This document shows, piece by piece, positions 6,750-35,863 of a stretch of DNA of 64,000 bases (the first letter of the stretch is position 1; each line of letters opens with the position of its first letter). The notes under the pieces were generated by a model. That model was not told the origin of the DNA. It made no database searches and saw only the letters and a list, made by a program, of their open reading frames with translations. This DNA is from Strobilurus pachycystidiatus (lineage: Eukaryota > Basidiomycota > Agaricomycetes > Agaricales > Physalacriaceae), in the NCBI GenBank assembly GCA_019915135.1, contig JAHLMK010000003.1:186001-250000 (forward strand), read 5' to 3'. Both the position numbers and the translations under genes were made by a program.

Positions 6750-6772
6750 AGCGGGCGGTCTTTTCCTCCAGG

Positions 6773-11365: not shown

Positions 11366-11373
11366 TATTTAAG
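11366..11373 (+). promoter_or_regulatory. TATA-like box for the DUF6699 gene
   Basis: TATTTAAG lies 52 bp before the ATG at 11426, a plausible distance for a fungal core promoter with a short leader. Confidence 0.5.
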
Positions 11374-11425
11374 GAGACATCCAACGGCCAGAGGACACTT
11401 ACTCACTCTGAGACCACCCATCATC

Positions 11426-14219: not shown

Positions 14220-16705
14220 TCACTTTTTCCCGCCTCTGCGAGTGCGCGACAAGCTGGTGTCCACCTCCATATCGAACAACGCCGGCCTCACCTCTCCCGG
14301 TGCCACATACCCGTATCCTTTGCTGAAAAGGTCGGTCAGCATACAAGCAGAACCAGCTTCAACGACGTACACAGCTTTCGGAACCGCTACCTTCTTTCCT
14401 GACCCGCCCGACACGCCAGATTTCGACTTCGTTTTTGTGGCTGGGCGCGCCTTCTTCGCTTCAGGCGCCTCGTCATCGTTATCTACTCGTTTCCTCCTAT
14501 ACAGCCTGCTCAATAAAAGTCGACCTTGTTGCACATGAACGACTTACTTGTTTCCAGTGGCCTTCGAGTTGTTCATGCTATCGAAAATTAACAGAGATCT
14601 CGTGATCCTAGAGGTTAGCTCACTTAGTTTGTTGATCACTTTCCCCTACCGCTGCCTTCGATTTCCTAACGGCAAGTTTACGATGAGCTGACGTGCAGGG
14701 GTCCACAAGAAACCTAACTGACTTTGTCGCCGCGCCTGCAGCTTTTCGTCTAATCAAATTCCAGTCAGGTCTGATTCCCGTACCCTATGACACTGACACA
14801 TACCCGCGAGCTTTAGCAGCTACCTTCGGCTGTGCAATCACGACTGCCTGCTCAGGCTCGGCCTCTTCATTCTCGCTACTGTTGTCTATTTTTAGCCAGC
14901 TTCTGCGGGTATAGTTCGCGATTGGTCACGTACATGGAGGGTGTCAAACTTCCCTCGAATGGATCGTTGTCGTCGGGATCGTTGTTGTCGGTTCCCGTAG
15001 GCATTCTGTCAAGGCTTGAGGTGAGAAAAAACCGGAAGAACCCAAACTTACTGGTCTACTTGCACCATGGAGTAACCCAAGCCGTCGTCAGGTGAAGATG
15101 CACGCTTCGTTCCTTTCTTGTTCGGTGACGCCGCGTTGGGTGAGGGTTCGAACGGGGACTCTGTATCGGAGGAGGCATCATCTTTCTCCGGTTGTTCGTG
15201 GTCGATCGCCTCCTTCGTGTGCATTTTCTTCTGCTTGGACTTTGTGGGTGTCTTCGGTCCTTTCGGGGGCGGAGAAGGAGGCGTTGGCACCTTGAAAACC
15301 TCTCGAATCGGATTCGCCTGGAAATGGCGAACAAGAGCCAATGCCGTGTCGGGGAATGACTGCAAAAGAGTCGCCACCTTGGGATCGCAGTTGGGCGATA
15401 GGAGGCTCGCAGCACCCGAACATATTGTGGCCATAGCAAAAGGCTCTTCGCCACGCGATAACCCTGATGAACATGTCAGAATGAGATACGAACCGCAATC
15501 CGTTCAGCGCGTACCCCAGTGCATGCGTAGAAATTTCTCAGCAATATATCGGATTTGAATGTGAGTAGTATTGTCGAGGTCGAGGTTCGAAGGGATGACG
15601 ATCGTTCCCGAAAAGTCAACATGGACATCTGAGGTTTGTACTGTAGCTGTGCCGTTCGCTTCAATGAGTGTGAGTATGATACTATCAGAGAGAAATGCAC
15701 TGCTTACGAGGAACGTGATCAGCACAGTACTTTCGCCACGCTTCGGTCAACTCTTTCGTCACGAACTGAGGGGGGTCGGGGTCTTCGTTCAGGATGAGGA
15801 GACTATCAGATGGGGCTTTAACAAAGCTAGCGACCGTATCGAAAGCTGCACACACCTAAACGGATTCATGCGCCCAGTTTCGTCTCGGACACCGACAAGA
15901 AGGCAGAATGCGGCATTACCGACTTGCTGTTTGCCAGAGCCAGGAAGCTTGTATAGTAGACTCGAAAGCTCTTGCAACATCAAGGCTTGATTTCTGAGTC
16001 GATGTCAACTTTTCAGCGAGATTGAAGGAACCTGAAGTACATACGCGTAGATATCTGGATCGCCGTTGTTAATGGTCTCCGCCTTGCTCGTCCATTCGTC
16101 TTTGGTGGCGGGCGGAAGTGTGTCCCAGGCTTCTTTCATCCGTGTCTGCAATATTCCAGCGTGTTGTTTGCAGTCCAGATTCTGCTGCTCTCGTTCAATC
16201 AACACCTTCGCGTTCAGCTGCTGTCGTATACTGGCGAGGTAGAGCGAACGTCCGGTCACCTCCCTAGTGGCAAGCAAGGAGGACGGACTCTTCTGGTCAC
16301 TGCCTCCGCCGCTGACCATCGTGAACGCTTGTCCCGGCGCCGAAACACCTATCTTGCTATCGCGGAGCAGTGTGAGTACGCGCTTGCCGCTTTGTGTCGC
16401 CACGGTGTCTTTGCGCGAACGAAATCTTGTTAGAAAAGTCTGTGGGCCACTCGTTATTTAGTCCTCAAGCGCGAACCATCCAATATGCGCACCTCTTTGC
16501 GATCGCGGAAGTCCGTTTCCTTGGGGAACTTGACACAAAACTGCGGCCACGCAATCTCGAGGCTATAGTCCTTTGGAAGTCTCTCGGTAGGGAAAGCCTG
16601 ACCCGGCTGCCAGTTTGTCCAGTTCTCGAGGAGAGGTTCAAAGACATCCTTAAGGTAATCTTTAATCCATTGGTCTTCATCTTTGGTCCACTTGTAGGCG
16701 GGCAT
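14220..16705 (-). CDS. Multi-exon nuclear-type protein with HMG-like segment and basic C-terminus
   Basis: Start MPAYKWTKDEDQWIKDYL at 16705. A first intron is 16440-16492; at least seven more join in phase. The N-terminal ~70 residues are rich in Trp and acidic residues (WTNWQPGQAF, YSLEIAWPQF, FPKETDFRDRKE). Next comes a segment rather like an HMG box (QTRMKEAWDTLPPATKDEW), then LLYKLPGSGKQQVGNAAFCL, an EAWRKYCADHV segment and IRYIAEKFLRMHWG. The C-terminal third is Pro/Lys-rich with an AT-hook-like ARGRK, acidic runs and a basic end (RTRRGGKK). This suggests a nuclear DNA-associated protein, but I know no named family. One junction near 14890-14930 did not resolve cleanly. It is the leftmost of the minus-strand genes of the 14-28 kb block. 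Confidence 0.5.
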
Positions 16706-17240
16706 GTCGATGGGTGGGGAGGGGAAGGAAAAGTGGAAAAAGGCACACCTCGATAAGCGTTCCTCTTTATCCGCCACTCGCCACTCGGGCCATCGCACTC
16801 TCTACGCCTTGACCTGCCGATGATACCATTCTTGGACATGGACCAGCCGTTAATTGTTTCGCCACATCGAGGTAACAAAGAGAAGGCGAAATCGTGGGAA
16901 AGTACTAACGGATTGGGAAAGTAGGACGCCGAAATGCTGTTTCCGAGAAGTCCGGTCTTGCACAATTCTGCTCTGTTCAGGACGTATTCACCTCGACAGC
17001 GTTGTATATTCTACGCAGACAATGACCTGAAAGAATTCACACCGTTTTTTCTCATATCCACCAAAGATAATGCAAACGTCCCAGCAGACAGATTCAAGAC
17101 CACCCTTGAACGCGCGTTTCTACTCAGACTTTGGTATCCCTCGACCAAAGCAGACTCATCGTACTCTCTAAAATACTCATGCAAGACTAGATTGAACGGT
17201 CTTCAAATTACAACTCTCATTTACAGCGTCGTCACCACAA
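16706..17240. other. Intergenic, nothing seen
   Basis: This lies between two minus-strand genes. It should contain the promoter of the 14.2-16.7 kb gene and the 3' flank of the next; I see no distinct element. Confidence 0.4.
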
Positions 17241-18329
17241 CTATACGAGCTTCTGGCGCTTCTCAGCAGAGGGGAAACAGGGCGAACGAGAGCGCTTGAG
17301 CAGTTCCAATACCTCCATGGAGGCTTCTTCGCTCAGATCGATAGAGGGCGAACGGGAACGCTTGAGCATCGGGGAGCCTTCCTCGCGTTGTTTCCCGTTT
17401 TCGTGGTTTCTATGACCGGGAACTGAGCTAAGGCATCAGCCACCATCTGAGCATCGACGATTGTGTGAGGGTAACGTACCTCTAGCACTGCAATCCTCCT
17501 CTTCCTCCGAATCGTCTGTCCGGGATGTAGCTTCGTCACTTTCGTCTTCGCTCACAAATTCGCGATATAGCGCTCTGATACCTTTGAGAAATCAACACGA
17601 TGCACCCTATCTCTTTCAGCGATTCGCTCACTGTTGTTGACTGCCTGTAACTTCCTCTCGCAAGATTGAAGAGTCTTGAAATGTTCCGCGCGCCTACGCC
17701 CCGCATCGTGAAATTTCGCTTCATTGTCCAAAATATCGTTGGTCGACCCTAGCGTTCAATCAGTGCATGTCGCCGAAAGCATGGCGTCTTTTTGCTCTCA
17801 CCGCAAGACATACGAAGTTCGTCTCTCGCATACCCCCGACTGCGTTCGGTCTGTAGTGCACCGATCCAGGCCTGCTCTGCATTCTCCAATGCGTCGATGG
17901 TAGCCTCACGTACTTCATGTAAACTCTTCCAGTCCTGCAATGCGTCCGCTAGATTAGCGCGTTCCTGGGCATCCAAGACCGGTGGAAAGTCTACTACTGG
18001 GCACGGAGACCGGGCGCGGCACTATAACATAAATATTGAATTGATTGAAAAGCGACTGTTCAGCTTACCTTGACCATTTGGTCGCCGATCCTTCCCCCTT
18101 CGGATACAACGCCATGCACATGTTGGCGAACCCCTTGTGTGTTCTGGTGGCATACCATTGCTGCGTCGTATTCGGCCTGTGTAACCGTAGGCGGTGGGAG
18201 AATGGATATGAGGAACCGAGCGTCGAGAGATATCGACGTCGTCATCTGGAGAATGAGGTCGCCTTTCGGAAACGCATAGAGCCTGAAGGGATTGAGGGGA
18301 GGTCCGAGACATCTGGGGCGACGACTCAT
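17241..18329 (-). CDS. Coiled-coil protein, paralogue of the gene at 21.9-23.0 kb
   Basis: Starts MSRRPRCLGPPLNPFRL at 18329. Exon 1 carries a motif shared with the gene at 21851-22957: DARFLISILPPPTVTQAEYD, then CHQNTQGVRQHVHGVVSEGG and IGDQMVK, ending at a phase-0 GTAAGC donor in the same place as the paralogue. Exon 2 is helical and coiled-coil-like (LADALQDWKSLHEVREATID, ENAEQAWIGALQTERSR). Distal exons are acidic then basic and end KRSRSPCFPSAEKRQKLV, matching the paralogue's end SRKRAKV. The join near 17400-17480 leaves a frame conflict (the simple splice stops at 17333 while the conserved tail is in another frame), so this copy may be damaged. Function is unknown; the tail looks like a nuclear localisation signal. 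Confidence 0.5.
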
Positions 18330-18537
18330 TCTTGCTTGTAGAGGACGGCGCGACAAGAGATGCCCAGAGAGTAGCAGGCATTTATGGAAAAGAGCGGAGG
18401 CCCGAGCACACCAGGATCGGGGCAACAATAGCACAATCAACTTACTTTGTGTATACATATTCAGAGGACAACTACGGCAGACAAAAGAAACCAGAGGGAT
18501 AGTAATTGTATTCGAGAACAAGAGATAACGGCCGCAC

Positions 18538-18597
18538 TCAGGCTGGCATGAAGTCGTCAGAGTCCTCCAAATCACTGAAGCGACCCATATTAGCCCA
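18538..18597 (-). pseudogene. Orphan terminal exon next to MITE copy 1
   Basis: A 3' splice site with a good branch sequence (CACTAACTGTCTTGGCTAG) precedes an acidic ending, WANMGRFSDLEDSDDFMPA, then stop. The matching upstream exons are not directly adjacent, because a truncated MITE begins 38 bp further on. A related splice-site sequence occurs beyond the MITE at 19335-19378. It is probably the last exon of a gene cut by insertion and rearrangement. Confidence 0.35.
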
Positions 18598-18635
18598 CTA
18601 GCCAAGACAGTTAGTGCAGGACGCATGGAATGAAT

Positions 18636-19316
18636 TAGAGACCTTCACGAGTCTCGAGGATCCAGTGAGTACTCGAGACTCGACTCGCCTCGGGCACTCG
18701 CAGGACTCGATCCCCGAGACTCGCGGATCTTGCCGGGGCGAGTCCGAACACGAGTCGCGAGCAGGGCTTCGGTCGTGTGAGTACTCATGGCGAGTACTCA
18801 CACGGACTCGCGCAGTTCTCTGACGGTTAAAGACCTCAGACAAACTGTGAGCCGAGCGTGCAGCAAGCGTGTTGTACGCTCGTTCTTAATGAAATTTGAT
18901 CTGATCACTCCGGATCAATATCCCGGATCCCAAGCGAGCGAGCGAGATTGATCGCGATCAATCTCTTGCTCTTCTCCTGCCTCCACCACCATGGGGTTGA
19001 CGATTCGTCAACCCTGCCAGTCTGACAATTGTCATCTGGCTTTGGACGACACCCTCATGCCCCACAATAGGGCGCGGACGACTTCTGAGGTCCGTTGCTA
19101 GGGCGCCGCGGCCTTGGCAACGGGCCAACCAGGACGCGTAAGCCCCCATACATGGGCAGCAGACGCTGAACGGCGACAATAGCGGCCATCCAGAGGCCTC
19201 GGCACTTTGGAAGGACCTCTGAAGTGCTGCTCGGCAGGCCTGGGGACTGGATTGGGCGGGATGACCGGTGCGCGGTGCGTTTGCGAATGACGCGCACACC
19301 CAGGTGCGTGTCTCAA
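18636..19316. mobile_element. hAT-type MITE, copy 1 (right half missing)
   Basis: It starts with the terminal sequence TAGAGACCTTCACGAGTCT and matches the first 681 bp of the full copies at 32350 and 47114 closely, then departs after GTGTCTCAA. The right terminal inverted repeat is gone. It has no coding capacity of its own. Confidence 0.85.
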
Positions 19317-20130
19317 CATTTTCGCCAGCCGTAGCGGGCCACTAGCCAAGATAATCAGTACAGGACGCATGCCATGAATGGATGGGGCGTACGGCACACT
19401 CAGCATTCTCTCCCAGAGCCCACCTACACAAGCCAGTGTGTGCGAGGTCATGAAAAGCGACGATAGCGTACAGATGCAAATAAGAGTCTACGAGCTCAGT
19501 GACGGTCTGTGGAGCACATCATCAGAATGCTTGCAAGTCTGGCAATGCGAAACTTACCTTGCATACCGAGCCTTCTTCGGCTACTGATGCCCTGTCCCGT
19601 ATACATATGTCTTTATTGCTAGACGCCTGAAGGTGCGTTAGAGCGCCACAGTTAAATAGGAAATGCGAATACCCAGGTGTCGATAGCTCTGCGGGACTGT
19701 AGCATCCTTGTCAGAGACGTCGTTGTGGTAAACAGTCCTGATTCCTGAACACACCTTGCCACAGAAAGGCAACCCTTCAATCAAACCGACAAGATAGATG
19801 TCAAGCCTCAGCAATACGACTCGGAGAGAAGAGCGCTCCAGATGATAGTTGAAGTGACGCGATAAGAGCTACGCCGTTGCGTCAGAATGGAACTACAACG
19901 ATGCGAGGAAATGCGGACAAACCGTGATATGAATTTGAACCAGCCAGCGCTCAGAGATGCAAACTGCAAGACAATTTGCGGTCGTAGAGGCGTGCATCAG
20001 GGTGTATGTTTGGGAGCGTAACAGTTCAGTATCTTGTATACGTTCGGTTCACAATAAGTATCTAAGACATCGCTTGGAAATGGCTGGAAATCATATGGTG
20101 ACACCGTACTACCCTGCCGAGGGGTATATG

Positions 20131-20657
20131 TTAAACCCTTTCCGCCTCCTGCAGGATCGAGACGTCCTCGGGATCGTCACACTTCGCGAACCTATTCAAT
20201 GTCGCGTGTCCATCGACAGTCAGACGCAGCTCATGCTTAGTCTCGTTCAGCAAGCCACGACGAGTGCGAAAGGGAATAGCATACCAGTGCTTGACCGATT
20301 GATGAGAATATGTTGTGTTGTGTGGCGTTGGTGCCAGGCGCATCCGTTTCGTGGTCCGTGTCACAATCTTGCAAGGAAGGCATATCGCTATCACTGAGAC
20401 ATTCTTCCAAGCCCTGGAATCTTCTGAGAACATATCCTAGAGTCAGACAGGATGACGCACCTGTGTGTCTTTGGCCGCAGGCTCCCAACCGATATGGTCC
20501 CCGATCGTCTGCACGGTTTCCATCCTCAAAGCAAACGGGGCAGCGCCTTGGAGATCCACCGATTCGCTATTGAGTTTGGGAGCAAACTAAAAAGAGGGAA
20601 GTTGGAGCCTGTGCGCACAAGGGAAATTTGAGACATTCCACATACCGAAGCGCACAT
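20131..20657 (-). CDS. Unrecognised acidic protein, four exons
   Basis: ATG at 20657 (MCAS), then a GTATGT...TTTAG intron into FAPKLNSESVDLQGAAPFAL and METVQTIGDHIGWEPAAKD. A second intron leads to GLEECLSDSDMPSLQDCDTD..., and a third, with a GTATGC donor, to HELRLTVDGHATLNRFAK and a stop at 20131. All joins are phase-consistent and the exon content reads as real protein, but I recognise no domain. More exons downstream (for instance 19450-19527, VTELVDSYLHLYAIVAFHD) could belong to it. Confidence 0.4.
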
Positions 20658-21119
20658 GTTGGACAATCTTTTCACGGCGATTGAACCCCCTGTACGCGTA
20701 TATAAACCTCTGAGATAAACCCTGTCCCTACCGCCCAGACTCAGGGACGTCTCTTTTGTTCTCATTCGCGAATCTGTCCATCCAACTCCATGGGGTTCGA
20801 ACGTTGCACTCGCTAAGAAGGGGTAGGCTTATTGTTTCGACAGATTTGAGGCGTCGTTGGCGAAGGGATGGCCGGCGGTGGAGAAAGAGAAGGCGTGGGA
20901 AACGGAAAACTCTTTGGGATGTACCACCGCGAAATCTCGTCTCCGAGTTCCGCGGATGCTCCGCTGAGTTCCTGTTCGCGGTCCAAAGTGCGACAAGTAC
21001 TGTACTGTACATAAGATTCTCTCAATTCGGCATTGCTCAGAGAGATTTTGCACAAGTAAATTTTGGACGCAATGATAATTGAGTATACATGTAACATTCA
21101 GACCCGCTTCACGCAATAG

Positions 21120-21577
21120 CTACATCTCCTCCAAATGCGGATTAACATCGTCCATCCATGTGGGCGGAAGCGCCCCGTTGGTTGCTTTCAAGAAGATCGG
21201 CCGTGGCGTCATGGGGACAGCGATGTAACTTCGCCAACCAATGGTAGACCACCAACACGAACTTCCGCAAATATTGAGCAAGCCGAATGATGGGCGTTCA
21301 ATAATGCCATGGGTCCACAGAGTCAGGGAGTGATCTTTGAGTCGAATGTGTCGTCCAACATTGTGGAGCACGACCGTGACTCGCCGTCCGCCCTGGGCCA
21401 GAAGGTTATTCGAGATCAACAACCAGTCAACCATTCAACCACACTCACCGAACGATAGAATATCAAAGTCGCATCGAGAGTGCCACGCCGACGTGGACGG
21501 CGCTTGGAACGCGCCCGCATAACATGTGGCGTGATTCCTGATTGGAAGGGTTCGCGATAGGTGACGAGTTTGGCCAT
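21120..21577 (-). CDS. Small basic hypothetical protein (133 aa)
   Basis: Two exons: 21577-21449 (43 codons, MAKLVTYREPFQSGITPHVM then a run of basic residues RARSKRRPRRRG) and 21392-21120, with a GTGAGT...CCCAG intron of 56 bp. The second exon gives GGRRVTVVLHNVGRHIRLKD, LTLWTHGIIERPSFG, SCWWSTIGWRSYIAVPM and ends MDDVNPHLEEM. A TATA box sits ~35 bp upstream of the ATG. I recognise no family; the basic patch suggests nucleic-acid binding or nuclear import. Confidence 0.55.
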
Positions 21578-21612
21578 GTGCAGAGGTTGGGAGTGCGCGA
21601 GGGATATCGCAC

Positions 21613-21619
21613 CTTTATA
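21613..21619 (-). promoter_or_regulatory. TATA box of the 133-aa gene
   Basis: TATAAAG on the minus strand, about 35 bp before the ATG at 21577. Confidence 0.5.
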
Positions 21620-21850
21620 ACCATTTCGCTGGGTGGCCTCTCGCGAAGTTCTCAGCTTTGTTCACCCAAAGCGTCGTCCAAAGACGTCGTCATGGTTCCT
21701 CAATGGTAGTGGCATTGTCCTCAATAGTAGCCGATCCAGATTGCAATTGTCGTGCTCCGGTTTTGGTTCATCTTTGATAGTGTACATTGGAATGACAATT
21801 GAAGAACTTGAAATATACACGTTATTGATGTAGTTAGGTAGGTAGATAGT

Positions 21851-22957
21851 TCAGACTTTGGCACGTTTCCTACTCGCTGTAGCAGAGCGGGCAGGAGTGT
21901 AGCTGATGATTTCCACATCGGAATCCGGCTCGCTCTCGTCACGGGCTCGTTTCCGGGACTGACGTGGAGGAGACAGATCCGCAGGCGGGGACAAGACACG
22001 AGGAACGTCAGCCTTGATAGTAGCGGAACTTCCGCCGCCGGTAGTATCGCGCCCTCCGGCTTTATCTTGTAGAGAACCGTTAGTACAGACAACGAGGAAC
22101 GAACAGTGTACAGGCACCTTCTTCCTTCACGTGGTCATCGACCTCGCCACGCTCACGAACATTGACGTTCTGCTCAGATAGAAGTCTTTGTGGGGGGGGA
22201 AGAACTACATTGAGAGCTAGACACCAATGAGTTAAGACCGTGCGCAATAACACATGTGGCTTGAATTCGATTGACCTTCGAGATTCTCAGCAAGTTGTTT
22301 CTTGATGGCCAGAGCCTGCGTCTCAGCCTGTTGTTCGGACAAGGTCGCTTTCTGAAGTTTCGTGGCCGCAGCTAGCTGTTCGGACAACGAGACTGATGCA
22401 CGTCAGTTTTTGAATACACCAAAGCACGTCAGTTAGCGCGTACCAGCGGTGCTCCGGTGAACGAGCTGCAGCGACTCTTGCTCATACTTTTGGCTCGAGG
22501 CCTTGAGCGCATCTCTGGTGCATCGGGCAAGCGTGACCAGGAGAGTATCGCGTTCCTTGAGGAGAATCTGAATGGCCTCTACTTTGCGAGTAGCATCGGC
22601 GATGGTGTGCGAAGAACGGGCCGTCACAAGTCGCATTGGGGCACACGCATTGACAACGTTGGCAATCTTGCGCCAGTTATAACACTTTTCGATATCAGCG
22701 AGGCGTCCAGCGGGTGAGTTGGGACTCACTTTCAAGTATACATGGCCAATGTCTGAGCCGGATGTCACAACCTCGTGGCGGTGATAATGGTCTGGCAGGT
22801 GGCATCGCATGAAGATATCGTACGCTTCCTGCGATAGCGTCGGACCTGGGAGCAGTTTCAGGAATCGTCTTTCGTCGGGAGTGCTGGTATTCGTGACTCG
22901 AATCTGGATAGTAGATGTCTGGTAACAGAAAGTCGCTGGGGGACCGTTGGGCGCCAT
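21851..22957 (-). CDS. Coiled-coil nuclear-type protein, paralogue of the gene at 17.2-18.3 kb
   Basis: Starts MAPNGPPATFCYQTSTIQIR at 22957, 30 bp after a TATATAAT box. The N-terminal motif DERRFLKLLPGPTLSQEAYD, then MRCHLPDHYHRHEVVTSGSD and IGHVYLK, aligns with the paralogue, including the phase-0 intron right after the Lys. Exon 2 is CYNWRKIANVVNACAPM followed by a coiled coil (RKVEAIQILLKERDTLLVTL). Two or three short exons add Gln/Ala-rich coil (SEQLAAATKLQKATLSEQQA). The last exon is Ser/Pro-rich, with RKRARDESEPDSDVEIISYT (VEII is a possible SUMO-interaction motif) and the basic end ASRKRAKV. It looks intact. Role unknown. Confidence 0.6.
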
Positions 22958-23271
22958 ATCGGATAGTGGTTTATCGTCGGTGAGCACTGTGATTATATAT
23001 CGGAGCTGGCGGTCCATTGTTTCAGCAACAATTACCAGCCACGGAAACAAAGTAAAGTCACCTGCACGTTATTGTTCGACCAAAAGACCACTCATCGTCA
23101 ATGCATCCCGAGCCCGGGCCCTTCGTGAAACCGTTTCTCATTGCCATGGCGTAAAAACATCGATAAGGACTTTTCTGAAGCTCGTATCGTAGATACAAAA
23201 ACTCAATGTTCACTAGGATTTTTACGAATACATTGTAACCGGAGAGATTGGACTGTGCGTAGGTAGGTAAA

Positions 23272-24341
23272 TTAAGTAGAAAGACTATGGCGTATGCTCC
23301 TCCACATAGCTTCACCGAACCGTGAAGCGACACCTTTGTAACTGATCAAAATGAGCGGCGGCTTGACGTACAACTCCGTCTCCAGAGGGCAGTCACCCCA
23401 GTTCGATTTGAAGGCGTTGTACCGCACGAAGCCGTCTCGCTTCTCAAGGTCGAGAAGATCCAAGATCTCCTGCCCCCAGCAAAGGAAATCTGACGTCCTT
23501 TGGAGTGTAAACAGTCGGGGCGGAGCAGACTCCTAGAAATAACGTGAGAAAGTGCGAAGTGAGAGAGACTACGAGAAGTCTCACCATCTCCCAAAGTACG
23601 ACAGCGACCGTGTTGGTGATACCGGCTTGTTGAACGGTTGATGAAGATGTGTCGGCGTGGCCCTCCCGAGTCACCTCGGTTCTATCTGGGATTGGAGAAG
23701 GGGATGTGAATAGAGGAGAAGGTGGTGAGGACGGGGGTAGAGGCGATGGGCGCGTAGCAAGACGGTCCGCACGGGCAGCGCGCACATAACTTTGAGAGAA
23801 GACAAGATTCTCCTCAAGCCTTCTCCGCGAGCAGACTCTGTAATTTGTCGTCCTTGAGGAGATCATCGTCGCTCAACCCAGTTGACGCGGAGGCCATCCA
23901 GATGTTGCAGTTCTTGCACTGTTTGAAACGAAGGTCAGATTGTGGCAAGGTGTCCATTGGCGGATAGAAACGTACAAGATACGTGCAGTGCCCAAGTATT
24001 GAGAACTCGAACGTTCCCTCGGCGGGAACGACGCCTTGGCCGCCATGCCAATAAGCCTTCTTGAAGGTATGCTTGGCCGAGACACACTTGTTATACCTGT
24101 CCAGTCCAGTGTCTGGCAAAATGTCGCCCTCGCCTCGCGCGGTTTCGAATAGCTTGCAAAGATAGGTGGTGAGGGATTTGTTGACGTTTCGAAGCCAGAG
24201 AGTCTTCTCTTCGGCCGGGGTAATGTCTGGGTCCTGGGGAAGAGTGTATGGCAAGCGTGGAAGTAACAACGCGCGATTCGGGGGTTGAACGGAAGTATGG
24301 GAAGTCTCGGGGTGCTGCCTAGGAGTGCGAATGGCGGGCAT
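23272..24341 (-). CDS. Unrecognised protein of the 14-36 kb block
   Basis: Starts MPAIRTPRQHPETSHTSVQP at 24341. Exon 1 includes LPYTLPQDPDITPAEEKTLW and KAYWHGGQGVVPAEGTFEFS up to ILGHCTYL. A GTACGT...ACAG intron of 57 nt (multiple of three, no stop) may be spliced. CKNCNIWMASASTG follows with a CX2C pair, then a ~40-nt intron, a Pro/Ser-rich linker (LATRPSPLPPSSPPSPL), a GTGAG...TTCTAG intron and a final exon with LFTLQRTSDFLCWGQEILDL and FGEAMWRSIRHSLST. The layout (ordered N-terminal domain, low-complexity linker, short C-terminal domain) is clear but I know no named family. Confidence 0.5.
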
Positions 24342-24718
24342 GGTCGTCTTGTTGAGAAACTACATCAGTAAGAAACTCCTTTATCGAAGAAGACTGGGGT
24401 CAAAGCGCACCTTTTTGACCATCCAGAAGACATCTAACCGCGCGCCACCCACCCAAACATAGTCGAACAAAAGGGTCCCTGAGGACAATAAACTTGAAAT
24501 AATGTTTTGGCCGGCAGCGAAGTGGGGGAGGAAAAGGAAGAGCGAAGGCGTGAGAAAAAGCTGCCGACTCGACTAAATCGGGCTGCGAACGCCTGGTTCC
24601 GAGATGGCCGGGCTCGTAGAATTCTAAGTACAAGACATGATGAACAAGATCGATTCGATACTACTGGTTCAGGATAGGTATGAATCCATTCTAAAAGCTC
24701 CAGGTTCAAGCGTGCTCG

Positions 24719-25363: not shown

Positions 25364-25614
25364 CCTTATTGTCAGAAAATGGAACAATAGAGATGATTGC
25401 CTTTTATATTTATCGCCCCGGTTGAGTGCCTCAATTCTTCCAGGCTCGTGGACGGACCTGCTAAGTTGATACATTATATGATATACAGTACGACAGGCGC
25501 CGAGGAAGTAGGTGAAGATGAGTAAAATTTGGTAGAAATTCGCGTCGTAATAAGCGATCCGATCTTATAAGTGTCCAGTAGAGTACAGTACAACACAATA
25601 GTCCGTATTCGATC

Positions 25615-28420
25615 TTACAGGTGTCCAGCAGCAGGCTCCTTCAACTGCCGCGCTTGAGCTTCGTTAAGAGCTCTGGACTCGGCAGACTCTTCAACTTCAC
25701 ATAAACAGGTCTCTGGAATCAAAAGTTCCTGATCCGTGATGAGGTCCTCTTCACCTTCCCGTATGATCACCACACGAACAGTCCATTGTTGCAGCCCTTC
25801 GTGGCGACGCCGGCGAACTGGGCGAACTAATCTGCCAGCGTATGGTCCATGGATTATTGCGAACAGTCCCCTGGAACGACCTGTCGGATGTCTTGCTTGA
25901 ACGCCCGAAATTTCTACATCCGTCCATTTTCCCCGAAACGACTTGAACACCCCCACCTTGCCATCCCCCCGTACCCGAGGTGTCAGCACAATGTCCTTGC
26001 CTTCCTTGATCATTCGCAGCTTGACTTCGTCGACGGCGAGGAAGAGGTTCAAGGCCCAGTGATCCTCGGCCCTGGTTGAAGGGACAATGGGAGTACGGGA
26101 CGAGGGGTCCCAGGCAGGGGAGGAGGGCTCTCCTTCGGCGGAAGAGGGAAGTGGTGTTTTGAGACGAGGTTGTTCTTCTTCTTCCATTGCATGGAAGAGC
26201 CTCAAGCGCGTCCCTTTGATACGCGGCGGTTCCAGACCTTCGCCGTGAATGTAACCTTTCGGCGGTTGGAATGCGAGCTGATCTACTTCGAGGGGATATT
26301 TCGAGCGTAACTCCAATCCATAACTAAGAATGCAGTGTAAGTAAACAATCCCTTCTCAAAGGGTTCAAAGACTGACTCGGCGTCGACGACGTAGTCGTAA
26401 TCTATTGTCGCAGTTCGCCGCGGTGCAGCTGGTTGATAAGTCGTGATTTCAAGAACGACCTTGAGACCACTGCGCGTGTCTTGGCGTAGAAGGACATCTC
26501 GTACGACGGCGGGGTAGTTGCGAAGAGCGTGCCCGACCTTCGTAATCGTGGCTGGTACTTCCACCCAGGGTGTTGGGCCGGTATACATGCATGGTCTGGG
26601 GCGCGCTATCCGGCCCGGAACCGCTGGAGTTTCATCTCTATCGACCAACGCGGGATCGATTAACGCGTTCCGGGCTCGATGCTTGAAGACTTATGAGCAG
26701 ATGTAGCAATGACGAACGGAGTAAATGTACCTCCAAGCATGGTTTACAATTGCACATGGGTAGAGCCCTCTTGGGATCGGACAATGTGGTTGGCAGAGTA
26801 TTGACAGACCGCTCGCGGACAAGGGTTAGCGAGTTGACGTGCACCTCAAAACGCTGGAGAGAGGGATTAGGTTGGTTGTAAAAGTGATAACAAGTAAAAC
26901 ACCTCGATTTGCACATAATCCTCGGCTCCTTCGTGTATATCTTGTTTCGTCATGAGGAGAGCCACAGTTTTCTGGACCGTCTCCACCCAAGCCTGCTTGC
27001 CAGTGTAAGGTCCGGCACACACTCTGACGCTGTCTCCCTGAAGAAAAATCTTGAGGGCGTCGTACCAAACGACTGGAAGGAGGGTGTTATCGGGGGTGCG
27101 GATGGTGAGACCGTTCGAAGTGACTGCTTCTACGACGCCCTCGACCTGGACACTTCGAGACTTAACAAATTCTCCCTCCTCGAAAGCCCATTCGGTCACC
27201 CGAGGAAGAGAGGATGGACGAATCGCTGGGTGTTCACTTTGCAGGAACAGACCTGCGGCAGTGCTGCTGATGGATGTCACATCAATTTCCAGATCGGCTG
27301 TTGGTACGAGAACAAGGAGTAGCCCATACGAATAGGTACGCGTCCGATACTGATATTTTCGAGTGGACGCGTCAATGAGCACAGCCGGGGGGTTTTGTGT
27401 CTGCACTAGTTTTGGATCGAAAAGACCAGACACGCGGGGTCGGTAGCTAGCTCTGCGACGCTTCACCCACAACGAAGGCCAGTTGTACTCCAGGTGCGGG
27501 ATGAGAAGCACGGAGCTGCAAACGGGGGTGCACGACAGGACGACGCCGACATCATGGCGGTAGCGGCCCTTCTTGATACGGACCCATGAGCCTCGGGAGA
27601 GCGGGGGATAACCGCTCATCTCGGAAAGAAGAGCTGGCCATTCTTGTAGGGGCACGTTATCGAGATTAGGATGTTTTTGGCCGGTGAGAGGTCTGACGGA
27701 GGCGGCATGGAAAAGATCTCGAATTTCGCTGTGTGTGAAGTGCTGGAGTACGGGTTCGTTTGTTTTCTTGTCTACGTAGAGGGCACGAGAGTGGCGGAGG
27801 TGAGTTCGGATGGAACAATGATTGATATCTTGAGATGTCCACCAAAAGATCTCTCGAGGGAAGCGGGGGAGGAGGAATAGATACTCTGTCGAATTTTGAG
27901 GGATGAACTTTTGCATGTCCTTCATAAGGATTTCGGCATATCCGAGCTGTGACGGCCGTCAGATTGCGCAAGAGGACTAGGGATTCATAGTTGCTCACCA
28001 GACATTTGATTGATATAATCCTTTTCGGCAGGGAGGCGACCGGTGTTCGTTGGGAGCAGTCTGGTTCATTTGAAGACGCATCGGTGACGGTGGGGGAGAA
28101 CATCCTCTGGCTACTGTGAGGTTTCGACGCGTAACGTTCGGCCAGATAGTCGGTCCATCTATCGAGTGCCGTCTCTCCTTGTACCGGGGGAGGAGGGGAC
28201 GCATGAGAGGTACCTTGCTCGCTTTCCGTGTCGTCAAAAAAATCTGCACCTGATGAGAAAACGCTACATATCTAGATGATGAATTGAACGCACCTGGCAC
28301 ACAGTCCTCGGGCACAGAGTCTTCTTCGTCCTCCGAGCCAGAAGCTTCCTCAGCTTCGAGGTCAACAAACGCCAACGGGGAAGGTTTAGCCTGGAAAGCA
28401 GTCTCAGGATCAGGAGACAT
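25615..28420 (-). CDS. Spt5-like KOW-motif protein
   Basis: Starts MSPDPETAFQAKPSPLAF at 28420 with an acidic leader (DLEAEEASGSEDEEDSVPED) typical of a large Agaricomycete family of Spt5-like proteins. A linker exon (TALDRWTDYLAERYAS) follows. The main exon (~27,950-26,905) holds a first KOW motif in RGSWVRIKKGRYRHDVGVVL and a second in GDSVRVCAGPYTGKQAWVET. More exons follow: FEVHVNSLTLVRERSVNTLP; RNALIDPALVDRDETPAVPG with PCMYTGPTPWVEVPATI; and, across a GTCAGT...TTAG intron, VDADYGLELRSKYPLEV. The C-terminus has another KOW-like piece (RSRGLFAIIHGPYAGRLVRP). True Spt5 binds RNA polymerase II to aid elongation. These expanded relatives are of unknown role and, in my recollection, are multi-copy and TE-associated. 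Exon joins near 28,020 are uncertain. Confidence 0.6.
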
Positions 28421-28960
28421 GTTGAGCAGCCAAACTTACGCGTTTCTGAGACATTATTGAATAGACATGAACTGTAGATATAGTGTCGCGTCAGTTATAC
28501 TCGTTACGTATATCTTTCACGGACAGCCTCAAGTATCGTTGGACACCGAAAAGAGAGTGAGTGTGTGTATTGAAAAGATTACACAGATTATAATTTTTAC
28601 ACCGGCCAAGAAGGACTTACCAGCATGATATGCGCGATGATGAAGTCGGGAAGCAGAGGGGGAAACCGTGGGAACCACTTGCCAGAAATACAAGTACTGG
28701 CCTGAAACGGGCTTTCCGAAGATTTCGGAAACTCGTTTTCGGCATGGGTCAAGGTACGCTGCAGCTGCTTAGTAAGCCCTTTTCCTCTTGCTTTTGGTCG
28801 TCATCATGCTTGGGCCAGTGGTGGCCATTGTTCGACACGCACGCTTTATCCGGCCAGATTCAGCAATCACGGATAATGGCCTCTCCTTGGTCAAAGCCAC
28901 AGTAAGTTCAGCGATATAAAAGAACGATTCCAAGCTCACACCAGCGCTACAGCTTTCGCC
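28421..28960. promoter_or_regulatory. Divergent promoter region between the KOW gene and the polyglycine gene
   Basis: 540 bp separate the two outward-facing genes. A TATAAAAG box at 28915-28922 serves the plus-strand gene (ATG at 28961). The minus-strand gene has only AT-rich stretches near 28,580-28,610. No coding content is convincing. Confidence 0.5.
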
Positions 28961-30379
28961 ATGGTCCGAGCCGCCTACCTGCCTCCCCGCGGTAGCAATA
29001 CTTCGGCTGGCCACACACTCCGCGCATTCTCCTCTCGTCGCTGGAAGGACTGTAAAACATACAAGAACGTTGGATTGGGTCGCCAGTTGCGGGTGATCAC
29101 GGACACCCCGGCTGAAATGGGACGCCAACAGCTGCATGTACGTGTAGATAACATACTTATGTATCAGCTCTGACCTTCAGATAGAACCTCGAAACGAGCA
29201 AGTCTCGGACTCTCTGGCGTCCTTCTCCAGAGGAACGTCAGTTACTCTGCCTGCTCATGGACGACTGGAAATACATGTATTCCAAATTCAACAATCTTCG
29301 TACCGCTATCAAGCGTCTTAACGGCCAGAAGAACAACTCGCCCAACACTCGAAAGAACGATCCATCAAGGTATTGGAACTGCAAGTGGAAGTGGTATATA
29401 GCTAAGGAAATCATCGTGAAACGATTGGCTGGTGAGGTTTTAGTCTTCCGCGATGATGTTCTATTGCTGATACTTTCGCAGCGAAACGGGCTCAAATGGA
29501 CCAACTTTTTCTCCAGACCAACGGCTGTACGTCTCTACCTTCATCGAAATGCGCTGTCTCATTACTTTGTAGTTGCCAGGAATATCTGCGACGTGGAGCT
29601 CCTGCAAAAGAGTATGTCTACAGTACCATTTCCTGGCTTGTCCTCACTCCGTTCCAGTGATTTTCGCTAACAAAAAGATCATGGATTTCAACGAGTTACT
29701 TGGTGACGAACCCGTCCGAATTGCGGCCGTACCCGCCTGGGCAGTAGCTGTCCACCATGCTACTATGGGTGCCAAAGGCTTCGCGGCTGCATATCCTCCG
29801 CCCGGAGCGAATGGTCCCCCTCCCCCGAGACCTCCCGGCGACAGGAGGGGCGATGACGATGACGATGACGGTAATGCTCCTGCTGGCGGCGCTCCTGTTG
29901 GCGGTGCCGGCGGTGGTGGTGGTGGTGGTGCTGGCGGTGGTGGTGCTGGCGGTGGTGGTGGTGGTGGCGGCGGCGGCGGCGGCGGCTTTCCACATCCTTG
30001 TGCTGGACCCAGGCCGCCAGCTCCCACAGTCACCCTTAAGAAGAACAACGTCGAAGGTGTGCATGATTGATTGATTCCTGCTTGACATTCGCAGCTGATC
30101 GAATTCATCCGTACAGCTACGAGTGCAAACTGCAGCGCGACGACGAAGAAGAGACCTCTTTTAGAGCAACTAGACGCAGCCTTTGGAAAACCTTTGAGGA
30201 AAAAGCCTCGCCTTGGCTTGCTAGGCAAGTATGAACTCACAGAAGTGTCGGAGAAGTGGTCTGATGATTCGATAGTGCAAAAACCTCAGCCCTTCCCGAT
30301 GGCTCCTCCGAACAAGCGATTTGATGTCAGTTCTTCTGGAACGTCCAAGGCGGATGCCATATATATCGCCGATGACTGA
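28961..30379 (+). CDS. Multi-exon protein with polyglycine tract and possible SUMO-interaction tail
   Basis: Exon 1 is 28961-29137 (MVRAAYLPPRGSNTSAGHTL...); the intron 29138-29184 joins to LETSKSRTLWRPSPEERQLL and MDDWKYMYSKFNNLRTAIKR. Three short exons follow, then IMDFNELLGDEPVRIAAVPA, a Pro-rich segment, an acidic run (six Asp) and about 40 residues that are almost all Gly. After a GTGCAT...GCAG intron the frame continues LIEFIRTATSANCSATTKKR, GKPLRKKPRLGLLGKYEL and ends SSSGTSKADAIYIADD, an acidic-hydrophobic tail like a SUMO-interaction motif. KKRPLL and RKKPR may be nuclear signals. No named family. It lies 146 bp before the KDZ transposase gene on the same strand. Confidence 0.55.
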
Positions 30380-32349
30380 ACTGGCGTGATTGATACTGGT
30401 TTCTTATTGTAATGACTCGCTTATTGTTAGACCCTCACTAGTGTATCGCTTATTTCATATTCATGGACGCAGCTTTAATTACCATCTAAATACCTACTTT
30501 TTCACGTTCGTCTACCTTACAATCATGGCACCTAAAAAAGCTAGCACGAAAGCACCAGCGTCCAAAGCGAAGCGTAAAAATCCACCGGTGCCGCTTCCGA
30601 TGGCGCCAATCGAGGCTGGGGAGGCTCCTCCTGGCTACGGGCAGCCGGGTTTCGAATGGGAAAGTGTTGGACTCCAAAAGCGGAGGAAGACAGAGGCGGC
30701 GGCAGGAGACAAGGGGCGGATAGCGGAAGAGGGGCGCATGGACGAAGATGAGCCCATGGGAGAGCATCAACCGATAATGGAAGGCGAAAGTACTATCGGG
30801 GAGGAACCGAGCCCCGAAACCGAGGAGAAGGCGAGATACCAAGTGCGTTCTCTGCTGGCTAGACCTGATGAGCTTCACTAACGCAACACAGGGGGCATCG
30901 GTAGAGATGAAAGAGGTGCTGGAGCACAAACCGGTCTATCTTGATTACATGCTCGGTAACGAATCCGACATCACTCTTGGCGATCCATGCAAATGCGGCA
31001 AGGCATTGCGAACATGTCTGTGCTTTGAGTGCACGCATCTGCCGCCGTATTGCTCGGCTTGTTTCTTGCAAGCACACGAGGCGAATCCATGGCATTGGGC
31101 ACATCGATGGGACGAAGAGAAGGGAAATCTCATTCAAACCGATCAGAGCGTCCTGGGGCGAGTAGTCACATTCGGACACCGACGACATCAGGAGTTGGAG
31201 TGTCGAGAGCGCCGAGCAGACGAATCACTCGCCTTCACGGTAGTCGACCTGACCGGAATCCACGACACACGGGCTTTTTTTTGCAAATGTTCCCACTCTG
31301 CCGCTTTCAGCACGCGTCATTCACGTCTCGAAATGCTGCTGGCTAGTCGTATGTGGCCGTCGACAGTGAAGCAAGCGACTGTAGGCTTCACGTGGGAGGT
31401 GATGAAGGACTTCCACCTCCATACGCTTACCTCCAAGAAATCTGCATACGACTACATGCGGGCGATACAAGCCAAAACGAACAATGCCTTTTCGGGAGAC
31501 GTCAAGGTTCGTAGTGTCAACGTTGATAGACTGCGCTCTGACTTTGGTACAGGATCTCTTTCGCCAATTCATCCGCGCGCACAGGGTGTACGCAGCCTTC
31601 ATGGCAGAGAAACGAAGCGGACAGGTACACGGCATTGATAGGTTGAAGGCTTTCGCCAATCGAGTCCCGCGATCCATCGTTGTACCATGCTTCTCCTGTC
31701 CTCTCCGTGGATTCAACATATCCGAACAGGAAATGGATGAGGTTCCGATGCGCTATGTGTAAGTAGTTCTAACGTATACACCAGCAGAATTCTGACGGTA
31801 CTGTGCAGCCACACTGTTCAGATCTCCCTCAGCGTCGATGGCCACTTTGGTCTAACCCGGCTCAAGCAAGTGGACGACCCGGACGACGTCTCTCTGTCGG
31901 AGGGCAGAGGCTTTTTCGCTCTAGAGTCAGAGTATGATGCCTACGTCAAGGAGTACGTTTTGAACGACGAAGAAGTATGCGATTGTTCCATCTTGATTGC
32001 CAACACTGCTCAACACTCTCCAGAAATCGAGTTGTTCGCGATTCAACGCCATCGAAATGCAGAACAAGTTGAAGTTCAAGGGATGTGTCGTAACTGGCGT
32101 AATCGGGGTGACTTGTGGTCGACACTTTGTTTTTCAATCGATGGCCGATCTACATAAAGGAGAAAGGTATGTGAACATGTCATCGCATTTTCTTTGCCAG
32201 TAATGTTGTTCCTTAGATTCACGAACACAGACTTTGCCATTGCTCGTGCTCTGAGGCAGGTCATGCTGTCCGCCGTTTTGTCGAAGAGTATGGAGGCCGC
32301 GAAACAGTTTCGTCGTGTTCTCCTTACATACGATGTCGCTTGTCAGTTC

Positions 32350-33512
32350 TAGAGACCTTCACGAGTCTCGAGGATCCAGTGAGTACTCGAGACTCGACTC
32401 GCCTCGGGCACTCGCAGGACTCGATCCCCGAGACTCGCGGATCTTGCCGGGGCGAGTCCGAACACGAGTCGCGAGCAGGGCTTCGGTCGTGTGAGTACTC
32501 ATGGCGAGTACTCACACGGACTCGCGCAGTTCTCTGACGGTTAAAGACCTCAGACAAACTGTGAGCCGAGCGTGCAGCAAGCGTGTTGTACGCTCGTTCT
32601 TAATGAAATTTGATCTGATCACTCCGGATCAATATCCCGGATCCCAAGCGAGCGAGCGAGATTGATCGCGATCAATCTCTTGCTCTTCTCCTGCCTCCAC
32701 CACCATGGGGTTGACGATTCGTCAACCCTGCCAGTCTGACAATTGTCATCTGGCTTTGGACGACACCCTCATGCCCCACAATAGGGCGCGGACGACTTCT
32801 GAGGTCCGTTGCTAGGGCGCCGCGGCCTTGGCAACGGGCCAACCAGGACGCGTAAGCCCCCATACATGGGCAGCAGACGCTGAACGGCGACAATAGCGGC
32901 CATCCAGAGGCCTCGGCACTTTGGAAGGACCTCTGAAGTGCTGCTCGGCAGGCCTGGGGACTGGATTGGGCGGGATGACCGGTGCGCGGTGCGTTTGCGA
33001 ATGACGCGCACACCCAGGTGCGTGTCTCAAATTTCATTCATTTGATGTCTCTGGCCATTGATCTATTTATTCATGCAGCATGCCGCATGCCGCACACACT
33101 CGCATCTCCGCCACCCAACCACACTCAACGTCACTACCGCACGGCACACACCTCCTCGTCACCTCGTTGTGGTTCTTCCTATAATGTCAACTCCCTCGCC
33201 GCCCCGCCGCCGCCCTCGCTAATCATGTACTCATGCCCGGCTGAGGCCCCCCGCGCAATTGCTCGGGGGGATTCGTCGTGCATGACAGATGAACACTGCG
33301 AGTACTGCACGAGTACTCGCCTGAGTACCCGTGAGTACTCATAACAACTCGAATCAACATGAGTACTCGCCGGACCCGTGAGTACTCGACTCGCGGGACT
33401 CGAGTCTTTACCAGTGCGAGTCTTGACACGAGTCGCGGGCACTGATTTGGCCCATGAGTACTCGTGACTGCGAGTCCGAGTCGACTCGAGTCAAGACTCG
33501 TGAAGGTCTCTA
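32350..33512. mobile_element. hAT-type MITE, copy 2 (full length, inside the KDZ gene)
   Basis: 1,163 bp, beginning TAGAGACCTTCACGAGTCT and ending with its inverse. Both ends carry dense subterminal repeats of CGAGTC and the palindrome GAGTACTC, as is common in hAT elements. The target duplication is imperfect: GTCAGTTC on the left, CTCAGTTC on the right, separated from the right end by three extra bases (GGA). It encodes no protein and must rely on a transposase from elsewhere. It has the same length as copy 3. Confidence 0.85.
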
Positions 33513-34602
33513 GGACTCAGTTCAGCATCAAGTTCAAGACCCGCTTTGGTCGTAGCTTTCCGGACTTTGAGTTCATCGTCGACCTGATCTACTTCTTGGT
33601 CGCCAAGATGCACCTTTTTGGCCACATCGACGAATGCAAGTACAAGTATAACCTGAACTATTTCTTTGGGTCCGGTCGTATCCATGGCGAAGGGATCGAG
33701 ACAACTTGGGCCGAGTCCAAGCAAGCAGGGGGGAGTACACGCCATATGAATGCGGGCCATCGCCACGATAAGGTCAACGACCTGCATAACTATTGGAATT
33801 GGATGAAGCTCATTGGGCTGCGTGAGTCGCACCTTCTTCTTCATCGTCGTCGCACTAATACATCATCCGGGCAGCCGAGTTTCTAGAAAAGCATTTGATT
33901 GCAGCTCGAGTCAAGTTGGCGAAAAAGGTACAAACCTTCGTCGAAGGTTCGCGGTTGGCCGGGCGCGAATCCGTCGAGAGATGGCAGAAGCTCAGTGACG
34001 AGCACGTATCTTGGCCCGAGCTTCTCAAGGTCCCAGGCGTGACCGACAATGACAAGGCAAAATGGAAGAGTTTATTCCAGCTACAGTTGACGAAGCGTAA
34101 GTCTTGTTCGCCATCGTGAGATCGGAACTAACGGAGGTGATAGTTCCAGGCAAAGATGACGTCTTGAAAAGCCTCGAGAAGGAAGAGGAGCGCCATACAC
34201 ACACCACTCTGAAGGGCAAGAGGATTGAGACAAAGAATCGAACGGTTCAATGGATCAGTAAAGGTCTCGAAATCCAACAGAAGCAGTAAGTGGTTTCACG
34301 TCTGCTCTGCGGAGGCAAAAGTCTTATATCGTGCGGTAGGTTCGATATCCTCAAAGCCCAGAGGAAACACGGCAACAGTGATGACATCGAACAGGCACAG
34401 CAAACTCTGGCGCGAGACATCAAAGCCTTCCGGAAGATTCAGCTACTTGATCTACCTGCTCTTGAAGGTCTCGTAGCGGCGGTCTGCGAAGAGGATAAAC
34501 CAGTGGAGAAGGAGCTTCTCTTGCTTCCGTCGGACCTACTCGCAAAGACCACCCGGAAGAAGTACGATCTCGACGCAAAGGACGATTTCTTTACCATGGT
34601 CA

Positions 34603-34875
34603 CACTGCATGAAACATATCATATTTACGCCTAAAATATGATGAAAAAATGTAAAATTTCTTTAGCATATTTTCACTTCAAAAATGATGAAAATATTATA
34701 AAAATATATGAGAATATAGTAAATATATGCTATACCTTGCTATAATCAGACGTATTCATCATATTTTTACTCAATTTCATGATAATTTTATCATTTTCAA
34801 GATGTAAATATGCTAAAGAAATTTTACATTTTTTCACCATATTTCCGGCGTAAATATGGTATGTTTCATGCAGTG
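34603..34875. mobile_element. CACTA-type MITE (273 bp) inside the KDZ gene
   Basis: AT-rich insert with long imperfect terminal inverted repeats (~90 bp) whose tips are CACTGCATGAAAC and GTTTCATGCAGTG. It is flanked by a 3-bp duplication, TCA (34600-34602 and 34876-34878). CACTG tips with a 3-bp duplication are the hallmark of the CACTA/EnSpm group. Removing it restores FFTMV-KARHCTIEFRLREG in frame. Confidence 0.8.
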
Positions 34876-35863
34876 TCAAGGCCCGCCACTGCACCATCGA
34901 GTTTCGTCTCCGGGAGGGTCAGTGTAACGAAGCGGTCCAGATGCTTTGCCTCATCATCGAGCACGGCATGCTCTTAAAAGAGACGCGAACACAACACGCT
35001 CGAGGGGTTAGCATGAATCTGCGGTCCATGAAGTACATCAATACGGTTACAGCCAAAAAGCAGAAGTATGCCAACGCTTACGCACATGCGCGTCGATGTA
35101 TCCTACGATTGAAAGGGCAGAAGGATGATCCTGATTTTCCACCTTTGGCTGCCTTCGACCTGTGGGCAAAGAACGCGGCGGAGGCTCCCGGACTCGGAGA
35201 TGGCTCAATTGAAGAGAGCTGGATCTGGACGTACGGCCACTTGAGGACCTTGAATGGTCACGAGAAGAGCGCTTTCATCGAGGAAGGTTCGTCCCTCAAT
35301 TGATCTCAAAAGTCATACAGAACCTAAGCATGATTACAGTTCGTCGCGTGCGTTGGTCTCGGGCTTACGAAGACGTGAAGCGGTGGAGAGAAGAGGTGGA
35401 GATGTTGGAAGCAGAGTTTCGCCGATTCATCTACGCATGCCAGACCATGAGCGAGTCTTGGCGGGCATTGGCGCAGGACCGAACTCCAACCTACCCACTT
35501 TCGGTGTCCATCGCGGACGATTCTTTAAAGTCAGCCAAGTGCGGCTACGTTGTCTATGCCATGGATAAGGTGGACATGTACGCTCAAATGGAGGTCAAGG
35601 CTCGTACTCTGTTTATGAAAGCTGGCGGTGGATTCCCAGGCAAAGGCGAAACACTTTGGGACTTCTTGGACAAACGAAGACCGACAATCAATTTCAACTG
35701 GGAGAATGTTGGTTCCGCTCTGGAGAACCAAGCCGAGTTGGACAAGGAACGGCAAGACATCCTGAGGAGGTTTCATGCTCCAGTCGAGAATCTCGACGGA
35801 GAGGGTCATATCGATGACGGGGATGTAGATGAGGAGGACATAGCCGTAGGTTCCGCTGTGTAA

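Follow-up and report, generated by a model that had tools for sequence, protein, structure and literature searches.

A large and very probably complete KDZ-superfamily transposon bearing an Spt5-like gene in Strobilurus pachycystidiatus

KDZ proteins are transposases, and a gene encoding one lies within a 64,000-nucleotide stretch of the genome of the agaricomycete Strobilurus pachycystidiatus (contig JAHLMK010000003.1, here C3, positions 186001-250000; this whole stretch is called the window, and positions refer to it unless a contig is named). A sequence-only reading of the window had proposed that the block 14220-35863, with the KDZ gene as its right edge, is one large transposed unit carrying extra genes. 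The locus raises the questions of whether such a block has moved as a unit, where the unit ends and whether any of the additional genes belong with the transposase. Comparison with the remainder of the genome makes it very probable that window 12878-39421 is a structurally complete KDZ-superfamily transposon, one of whose genes has homology to Spt5 and is of a kind that is paired with CxC2-KDZ genes elsewhere in the genome; this degree of confidence does not extend to the role of the Spt5-like protein, which is considered separately.

Extent, termini and insertion sites

Copies of the unit were sought in the genome assembly (51.8 Mb, 61 contigs) using window 14001-38000 as the DNA query, and were then fetched and aligned; as the genome searches scored best candidates only, all counts derived from them are lower bounds. 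Four full copies with common ends were identified, namely the window copy, C3:1411336-1436008 (referred to as C3:1.41 Mb), C9:1754815-1779177 and C18:561877-610272. In the C3:1.41 Mb and C9 copies the similarity sets in at position 12878, and in the C3, C9 and C18 copies it stops at 39421-39423, which places the unit at 12878-39421 (26,544 bp, or 24,673 bp without the nested insertions of the window, as in the C3:1.41 Mb copy). The block first proposed lies inside these limits, with the right edge of the unit 3.6 kb beyond the KDZ gene.

The outermost 28 nt on each side (12878-12905 on the plus strand and 39394-39421 on the minus strand) form imperfect inverted repeats with CAG..CAG termini, where no terminal repeats had been noticed by eye: the sequence is CAGAAATTTCAGTGACTTTGTGGCCACG on the left and, after reverse complementation, CTGACATTGCAGTGATTATGTGGCCACG on the right, with 23/28 positions identical. 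Immediately outside, the 7-bp sequence CCGGTAC is present at both 12871-12877 and 39422-39428 as a target site duplication. Perfect 7-bp duplications were observed around all four full copies and all are different (CAATATG for C3:1.41 Mb, CCTTTTG for C9 and AGATGTG for C18), which argues against the copies being assembly errors. Discrete ends and a duplication of the same constant length were also found for a fifth insertion, a 5.0-kb unit at C4:2652119-2657099, which has the same two ends as the window unit and its own perfect duplication, TGCAGCT. Neither window 14001-38000 nor the transposase, when used as a query, brought this unit up among the best candidates, and on this ground it probably represents a non-autonomous derivative.

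The C18 copy splits a gene with an Oxidored_FMN domain (Pfam E=3.7e-24), an intact paralogue of which lies 1.7 kb beyond the element (C18:611925-612520). When joined, the two flanks of the C18 copy aligned unbroken to this paralogue (67% over 599 bp, E 8e-44), which has a single AAGATGTG at the position where the element sits. The C9 copy parts a retrotransposon frame, with an RT_RNaseH domain (7.5e-22) on one side and an Integrase_H2C2 domain (7.5e-16) on the other. Four copies with the same termini, four different 7-bp duplications and an uninterrupted paralogous site bear out the original proposal of one large transposed KDZ unit with extra genes.

A search for the terminal pattern, allowing up to 3 mismatches, gave 15 matches in the 51.8 Mb compared with 1 in the control, and 8 of the 15 are the ends of the four full copies. 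One element end was identified on C28. A pair of ends on C20 (510083/539829) was rejected as a 29.7-kb element because the 7-bp flanks differ, and single ends on C6 and C40 were rejected as independent insertions because of their common flank.

Subterminal repeats were observed at both ends of the unit. The left array (12897-13408) holds 9 and the right repeats (39066-39402) hold 4 of the 16 GTRGCCAC/GTGGCYAC 8-mers in the 64-kb window, making 13 in the element ends, and similar arrays end the C3, C9 and C18 copies. Local alignment of the two 600-bp element ends gave a score of 134, compared with at most 89 for 185 random pairs. Subterminal arrays of such a kind are presumably the usual binding regions of transposases. 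The other three 8-mers sit at 44008-44149, in a small element, an imperfect hairpin with no relationship to the KDZ ends; the motif cluster within it (44028-44121) was rejected as a further element end, being this separate hairpin.

Gene content and divergence between copies

The transposase gene (30525-35863, plus strand, about 1,145 codons) encodes a KDZ domain (PF18758, E=4.7e-49) and a CxC2 domain (PF18803, E=4.3e-21). All 37 of its relatives in the protein database have a KDZ domain and most have CxC2, the best being from Paramarasmius palmivorus (45% over 100% of the query), followed by those from Marasmius, Gymnopilus, Hymenopellis, Armillaria and others, and the genome itself has at least 174 KDZ-domain and at least 145 CxC2 matches. 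In the window copy two nested insertions break up the gene, a 1,164-bp inverted-repeat element (32350-33513) and a 273-bp palindromic element (34603-34875), both absent there in the other three copies, and for this reason the window copy is unlikely to be able to move itself. The C3:1.41 Mb copy has neither insertion, and its transposase frame stops 92 codons earlier than that of the window. The 1.16-kb inverted-repeat element has at least 12 further full-length matches in the genome at 98-100%, one of them at window 47110-48276, so that this small element has multiplied in a very recent burst; a truncated copy of 685 bp, found by DNA search of the genome, is nested on the plus strand at 18637-19321. 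Relatives of the 273-bp element were found at at least 18 places in the genome, at 84-97% and on both strands.

Genes were modelled with a purpose-written finder based on codon use, splice signals and comparison of the C3:1.41 Mb and C9 copies. Besides the transposase, at least six genes were found in which the amino-acid changes separating the copies are, per site, less frequent than the silent ones. The ratio of the two (dN/dS) for C3:1.41 Mb compared with C9 ranged overall from 0.07 to 0.43 (Fisher p <= 3.3e-4 in 8/8 genes, transposase pieces pooled), values which lean low because the finder rewards synonymous changes, and was 0.09 for the transposase, with 0.07 in its last 91 codons. On account of this reward for silent changes the test was repeated with models made without the comparison. 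A ratio of non-synonymous to synonymous differences (pN/pS) of 0.12-0.56 (p <= 0.029) was obtained for 10 of these 11 models, the other being an antisense artefact (pN/pS 1.14, p=0.74); exon borders differ in the comparison-free models, the leftmost gene, for example, encoding 647 aa and not 460 aa.

The genes lie in two divergent arms around 28.42-28.96 kb, as had been proposed, and the models confirmed the KDZ and polyglycine genes on the plus strand and the gene for a KOW protein on the minus strand. Five minus-strand genes are supported, fewer than the seven or more initially counted. The leftmost of these (15048-16705, six exons in the model, 460 aa, dN/dS 0.21 compared with C9) gave matches only in the four copies; its 3' part is uncertain in view of the 647-aa model, and for its protein, earlier called HMG-like or AT-hook-like, no such family was found in Pfam or in the Protein Data Bank (PDB) at E<=1, so that this label was rejected and the protein is left without a family. 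Next come two genes whose proteins of 289 aa (17241-18329, dN/dS 0.34) and 334 aa (21851-23017, dN/dS 0.29) are 28-34% identical, so that their reported paralogy stands, while the description as coiled-coil proteins is the label of the sequence-only reading. They are followed by a 337-aa gene without a family (23272-24422, dN/dS 0.31), which has one stop and 8 gapped codons in the window copy when this is aligned to the C3:1.41 Mb copy, and by the Spt5/NusG-family (KOW) gene (25615-28420, 844 aa, six exons in the model, dN/dS 0.26). An open reading frame of 281 aa at 24719-25561 was rejected as a gene, having no coding signal (4 synonymous and 16 non-synonymous codon changes). The plus-strand arm begins with a 407-aa gene containing a polyglycine run (28961-30379, dN/dS 0.43). 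Beyond the transposase lies a possible right-arm gene (37734-38301, plus strand) for a hydrophobic protein of 160-200 aa with an uncertain 3' end; its dN/dS is 0.31 between C3 and C9 and 0.25 between C3 and the window, with one stop in the latter, and it is not predicted when C9 alone is compared.

Three of the cargo proteins (460, 334 and 337 aa) were searched against the genome and matched only inside the four copies, apart from one chance-level match (E=0.16); for these proteins the expected co-occurrence with KDZ was observed.

The window copy is 98.8-99.9% identical to the C3:1.41 Mb copy over 12878-36154 (less nested insertions), has no match to it at 36155-37503 and is 71% identical over 37504-39422. 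Compared with C18, identity is 84-95% in the left half (87-95% over 16073-25096) and 99.2-99.6% from 25094 to the right end at 39421, with large inserts in C18; compared with C9 it is 69-92% by segment. The C18 copy is a mosaic, the left being nearer the C9 copy and the right nearer the window copy, and contains about 24 kb of nested insertions. Silent divergence between the C3 and C9 copies is about 0.09 in the Spt5-like gene and 0.46 in the transposase. On the basis of this mosaic and of silent divergence that is uneven along the element, the copies probably recombine. Degenerate relatives of the family are clustered at C3:2.44-2.83 Mb (at 2.44, 2.50, 2.53, 2.63, 2.67 and 2.82 Mb), those at 2.50 and 2.53 Mb having 3,781 bp in common at 99.6%, and this cluster is possibly a graveyard of repeats, for instance a centromere.

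Could the copies be segmental duplicates of a run of ordinary host genes, with a KDZ gene among them by chance? Contig C3 holds two of the full copies, and the single ends on C6 and C40 have a common flank and were duplicated along with it. However, all four copies combine the same termini with flanks and perfect 7-bp duplications that differ from copy to copy, the C18 insertion lies in a gene with an intact paralogue, and the matches of the three cargo proteins searched are confined to the copies; such a duplication is considered extremely improbable. Another possibility concerns how a transposon of this composition came about, the original element being the right part (the Spt5-like, polyglycine and KDZ genes) and the left arm a second element or a captured block. 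In two older relatives (C3:2.82 Mb and C3:2.63 Mb) the similarity breaks off at window 25621, beside the stop of the Spt5-like gene, and the three left-arm proteins searched were found only in the four full copies. In all four copies, however, the left end is at the equivalent of 12878 with a duplication matched at the right end, meaning that the unit now moves whole, and a separate right-part origin, which is regarded as rather unlikely, would bear on the origin of the element and not on its present structure. Because the left-arm proteins searched matched only in the four copies and the older relatives end at the Spt5-like stop, we infer that the left arm, with the four other cargo genes, is a family-specific addition to an older core of transposase and Spt5-like gene.

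The Spt5-like gene and its CxC2-KDZ neighbours

The 844-aa protein has a KOW motif (Pfam, E 1.2e-7). The whole protein matched SPT5 chains in the PDB with an E of 9.7e-8 across residues 214-448 (chain 8qsz_Y, 443-679) and plant RDM3/SPT5L at 0.18, while a profile of the main exon of the gene from four loci gave E=7e-9 for SPT5 and E=0.003 for RDM3/SPT5L. A profile of the second KOW-region exons gave nothing below E=0.3 in the PDB, and alignment of residues 18-137 with the Spt5 region preceding the KOW match gave a negative score. One SPAWD-SSRTP stretch (weak, with a negative score) presumably resembles the TPAWN repeats of fungal Spt5 C-termini. On sequence grounds, the protein is a divergent member of the Spt5/NusG family. 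KOW matches at C1:3.30 Mb presumably represent the host Spt5; they were not among the genome matches to the cargo protein at E<=0.001.

Three KOW matches were identified near CxC2 matches (C1:6.05, C1:6.39 and C13:1.46 Mb), and translated 400-bp pieces of these three matched the cargo protein within residues 512-612 at 29-37% (tblastn E 6e-6 to 3e-5, against a very small database; 28% in the alignment). A search with one of the KOW pieces gave at least 13 further loci. For 9 of them a CxC2 match is found no more than 10 kb away, and the orientation is head-to-head in every one of the 9. When the window protein was used, 9 of 12 loci were within 10 kb of a CxC2 match, eight head-to-head and one in tandem (C10); this list takes one match per locus from 47 and omits C27:223880 and C5:2710655, which are in the other list. 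None of the four other KOW matches, two of which are 1.3 kb apart, is within 115 kb of a CxC2 match. The share of the genome within 10 kb of a CxC2 match is 4.7%, and the binomial p for the pairing is 7e-10, a figure that overstates the independence of the loci because the 13 form about five sequence groups when grouped by pairwise identities. As the pairing spans groups with about 30% protein identity, it speaks for an old association between the Spt5-like gene and CxC2-KDZ. Within this one genome, co-occurrence with KDZ was found for the Spt5-like gene also, at most of its loci, and to that extent the refuting conditions named in the sequence-only reading do not speak against the unit.

In addition to the limited independence of the loci, several observations weigh against the interpretation of the unit as a complete transposon with a paired Spt5 homologue. 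For four of the 13 loci the nearest CxC2 match is more than 10 kb away (14, 49, 424 and 897 kb), three of the 12 loci found with the window protein are likewise farther away (31, 189 and 751 kb), and a pair within one transposon is seen for the window family only. No NGN domain was found in the 844-aa protein (Pfam, E<=1), and no Spt5-like relatives were found at E<=0.001 among 7,997 and 7,049 candidates from the protein database, a search which distant relatives would escape since shared 5-residue words were required. The parts of the element are not equally shared, with the right arm varying between copies (71% between the window and C3), and 4 of 10 comparison-free models have frame-shifting gaps relative to C9. 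Any role assigned to the Spt5-like protein is drawn from homology and position only.

With these points in mind, a working scheme can be proposed in which the CxC2-KDZ protein would bind the subterminal arrays of roughly 500 bp together with the 28-nt ends and would cut and paste the element, while units without a working transposase would be moved in trans. The Spt5-like protein would bind RNA polymerase II during elongation and would aid transcription of a long, silencing-prone element, as specialised RfaH-like NusG paralogues do in bacteria for the long operons of plasmids and for xenogeneic ones. Bacterial NusG helps to silence foreign genes and RfaH activates a few, and the long transfer operons of some plasmids include a NusG paralogue (PMC7593976, PMC7819879). 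RfaH and ActX are similar to the protein described here in being members of the NusG/Spt5 family that can be encoded by mobile elements and lie beside long operons; they are, however, bacterial, with antitermination established for RfaH and the function of ActX unknown, whereas the present protein is an 844-aa eukaryotic protein of the Spt5 type with a predicted role. By analogy, it may tentatively be regarded as an element-borne elongation or anti-silencing factor. The broader proposal, that in a KDZ lineage a conserved core gene beside the transposase encodes an Spt5 paralogue which, by engaging RNA polymerase II, would drive transcription across a long, silenced element, as a eukaryotic counterpart of the NusG paralogues of conjugative plasmids, is more speculative and must be considered rather doubtful at present.

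The protein might also be a decoy or antagonist, competing with host Spt5 or blocking transcription-coupled silencing in which, in plants, SPT5L/KTF1 offers a comparison. Its divergence and its weak match to RDM3/SPT5L would fit such a role, as would the TET/JBP genes of other KDZ elements, which have been proposed to counter methylation (PMC12730594). Plant SPT5L/KTF1 (RDM3) is itself a specialised Spt5 paralogue linked to transposon control, but it is a host-encoded silencing factor, and the match to it is far exceeded by that to true SPT5; a decoy is considered unlikely, though by no means far-fetched. It is less probable again that the gene is a passenger without function for the element: transposons do capture genes, and 4 of the 13 loci are without a CxC2 match within 10 kb, but the dN/dS of 0.26 (p=3e-11) and the recurrent head-to-head pairing with CxC2-KDZ across groups with about 30% identity argue against this. 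If the Spt5-like protein is indeed an elongation factor serving the element, its recurrence as a partner would point to a more general idea, namely that eukaryotic transposons may encode elongation factors to escape silencing. The TET/JBP cargo described for KDZ elements acts on DNA methylation, and an elongation factor would represent a second, different route.

Related elements and neighbouring sequence

Zisupton elements have a target duplication of 8 bp, which differs from the 7 bp observed in five insertions of the window family. The 8-bp duplication of Dileera differs in the same way (PMC12730594). The Kyakuja elements of the KDZ superfamily (Kojima 2025, PMC12730594) are similar to the window element in their KDZ transposase, agaricomycete hosts, 7-bp target duplications and additional gene. 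They are described as having 5'-CA..TG-3' termini and no terminal inverted repeats (TIRs), whereas the window element has CAG..CAG termini and imperfect TIRs, and for this reason it is not filed under Kyakuja. In addition, the described families carry TET/JBP, which was not found in the gene models of the window element using Pfam, and the available portion of the account makes no mention of an Spt5-like gene.

The KDZ1-KDZ3 elements of Cryptococcus, which jump in the laboratory, likewise have a KDZ transposase with a CxC cluster, TIRs and mobility, but are 9-11 kb in length with CxC1, TIRs of 139-241 bp and duplications of 4-8 bp (PMC12810828), compared with 24.4-26.5 kb (C18 being larger by its inserts), CxC2, imperfect TIRs of 28 nt, duplications of 7 bp and at least six more genes here. 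A parallel with the captain-led giant elements of ascomycetes had also been suggested and holds loosely, in that the Starships of Pezizomycotina are large fungal elements with many non-transposase genes. Starships are, however, classed by a tyrosine recombinase (PMC12134995), and the window element, with TIRs and a KDZ transposase as its enzyme, is for that reason not a Starship; no captain tyrosine recombinase was found in a Pfam scan covering the 8 gene models.

Membership of the KDZ superfamily is known ground; what is new is the size of the element, the number of additional genes that it carries (six or more) and especially its Spt5-like partner. No Spt5 on a KDZ element is named in the literature as covered by titles and the starts of abstracts, a coverage that leaves aside the founding paper (Iyer 2014), which may list one. 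Now that a KDZ element of about 24.7 kb has been delimited on both sides, with its ends, duplications and an empty site, multi-gene transposition in basidiomycetes becomes directly testable.

Outside the unit, the window contains elements of the long interspersed nuclear element type on both sides (6731-10786 and 46069-52747), with long frames and with reverse transcriptase and endonuclease domains. Host-type genes also flank the unit, encoding a DUF6699 protein on the left (11354-12097) and a UbiA prenyltransferase fragment on the right (42592-43260).

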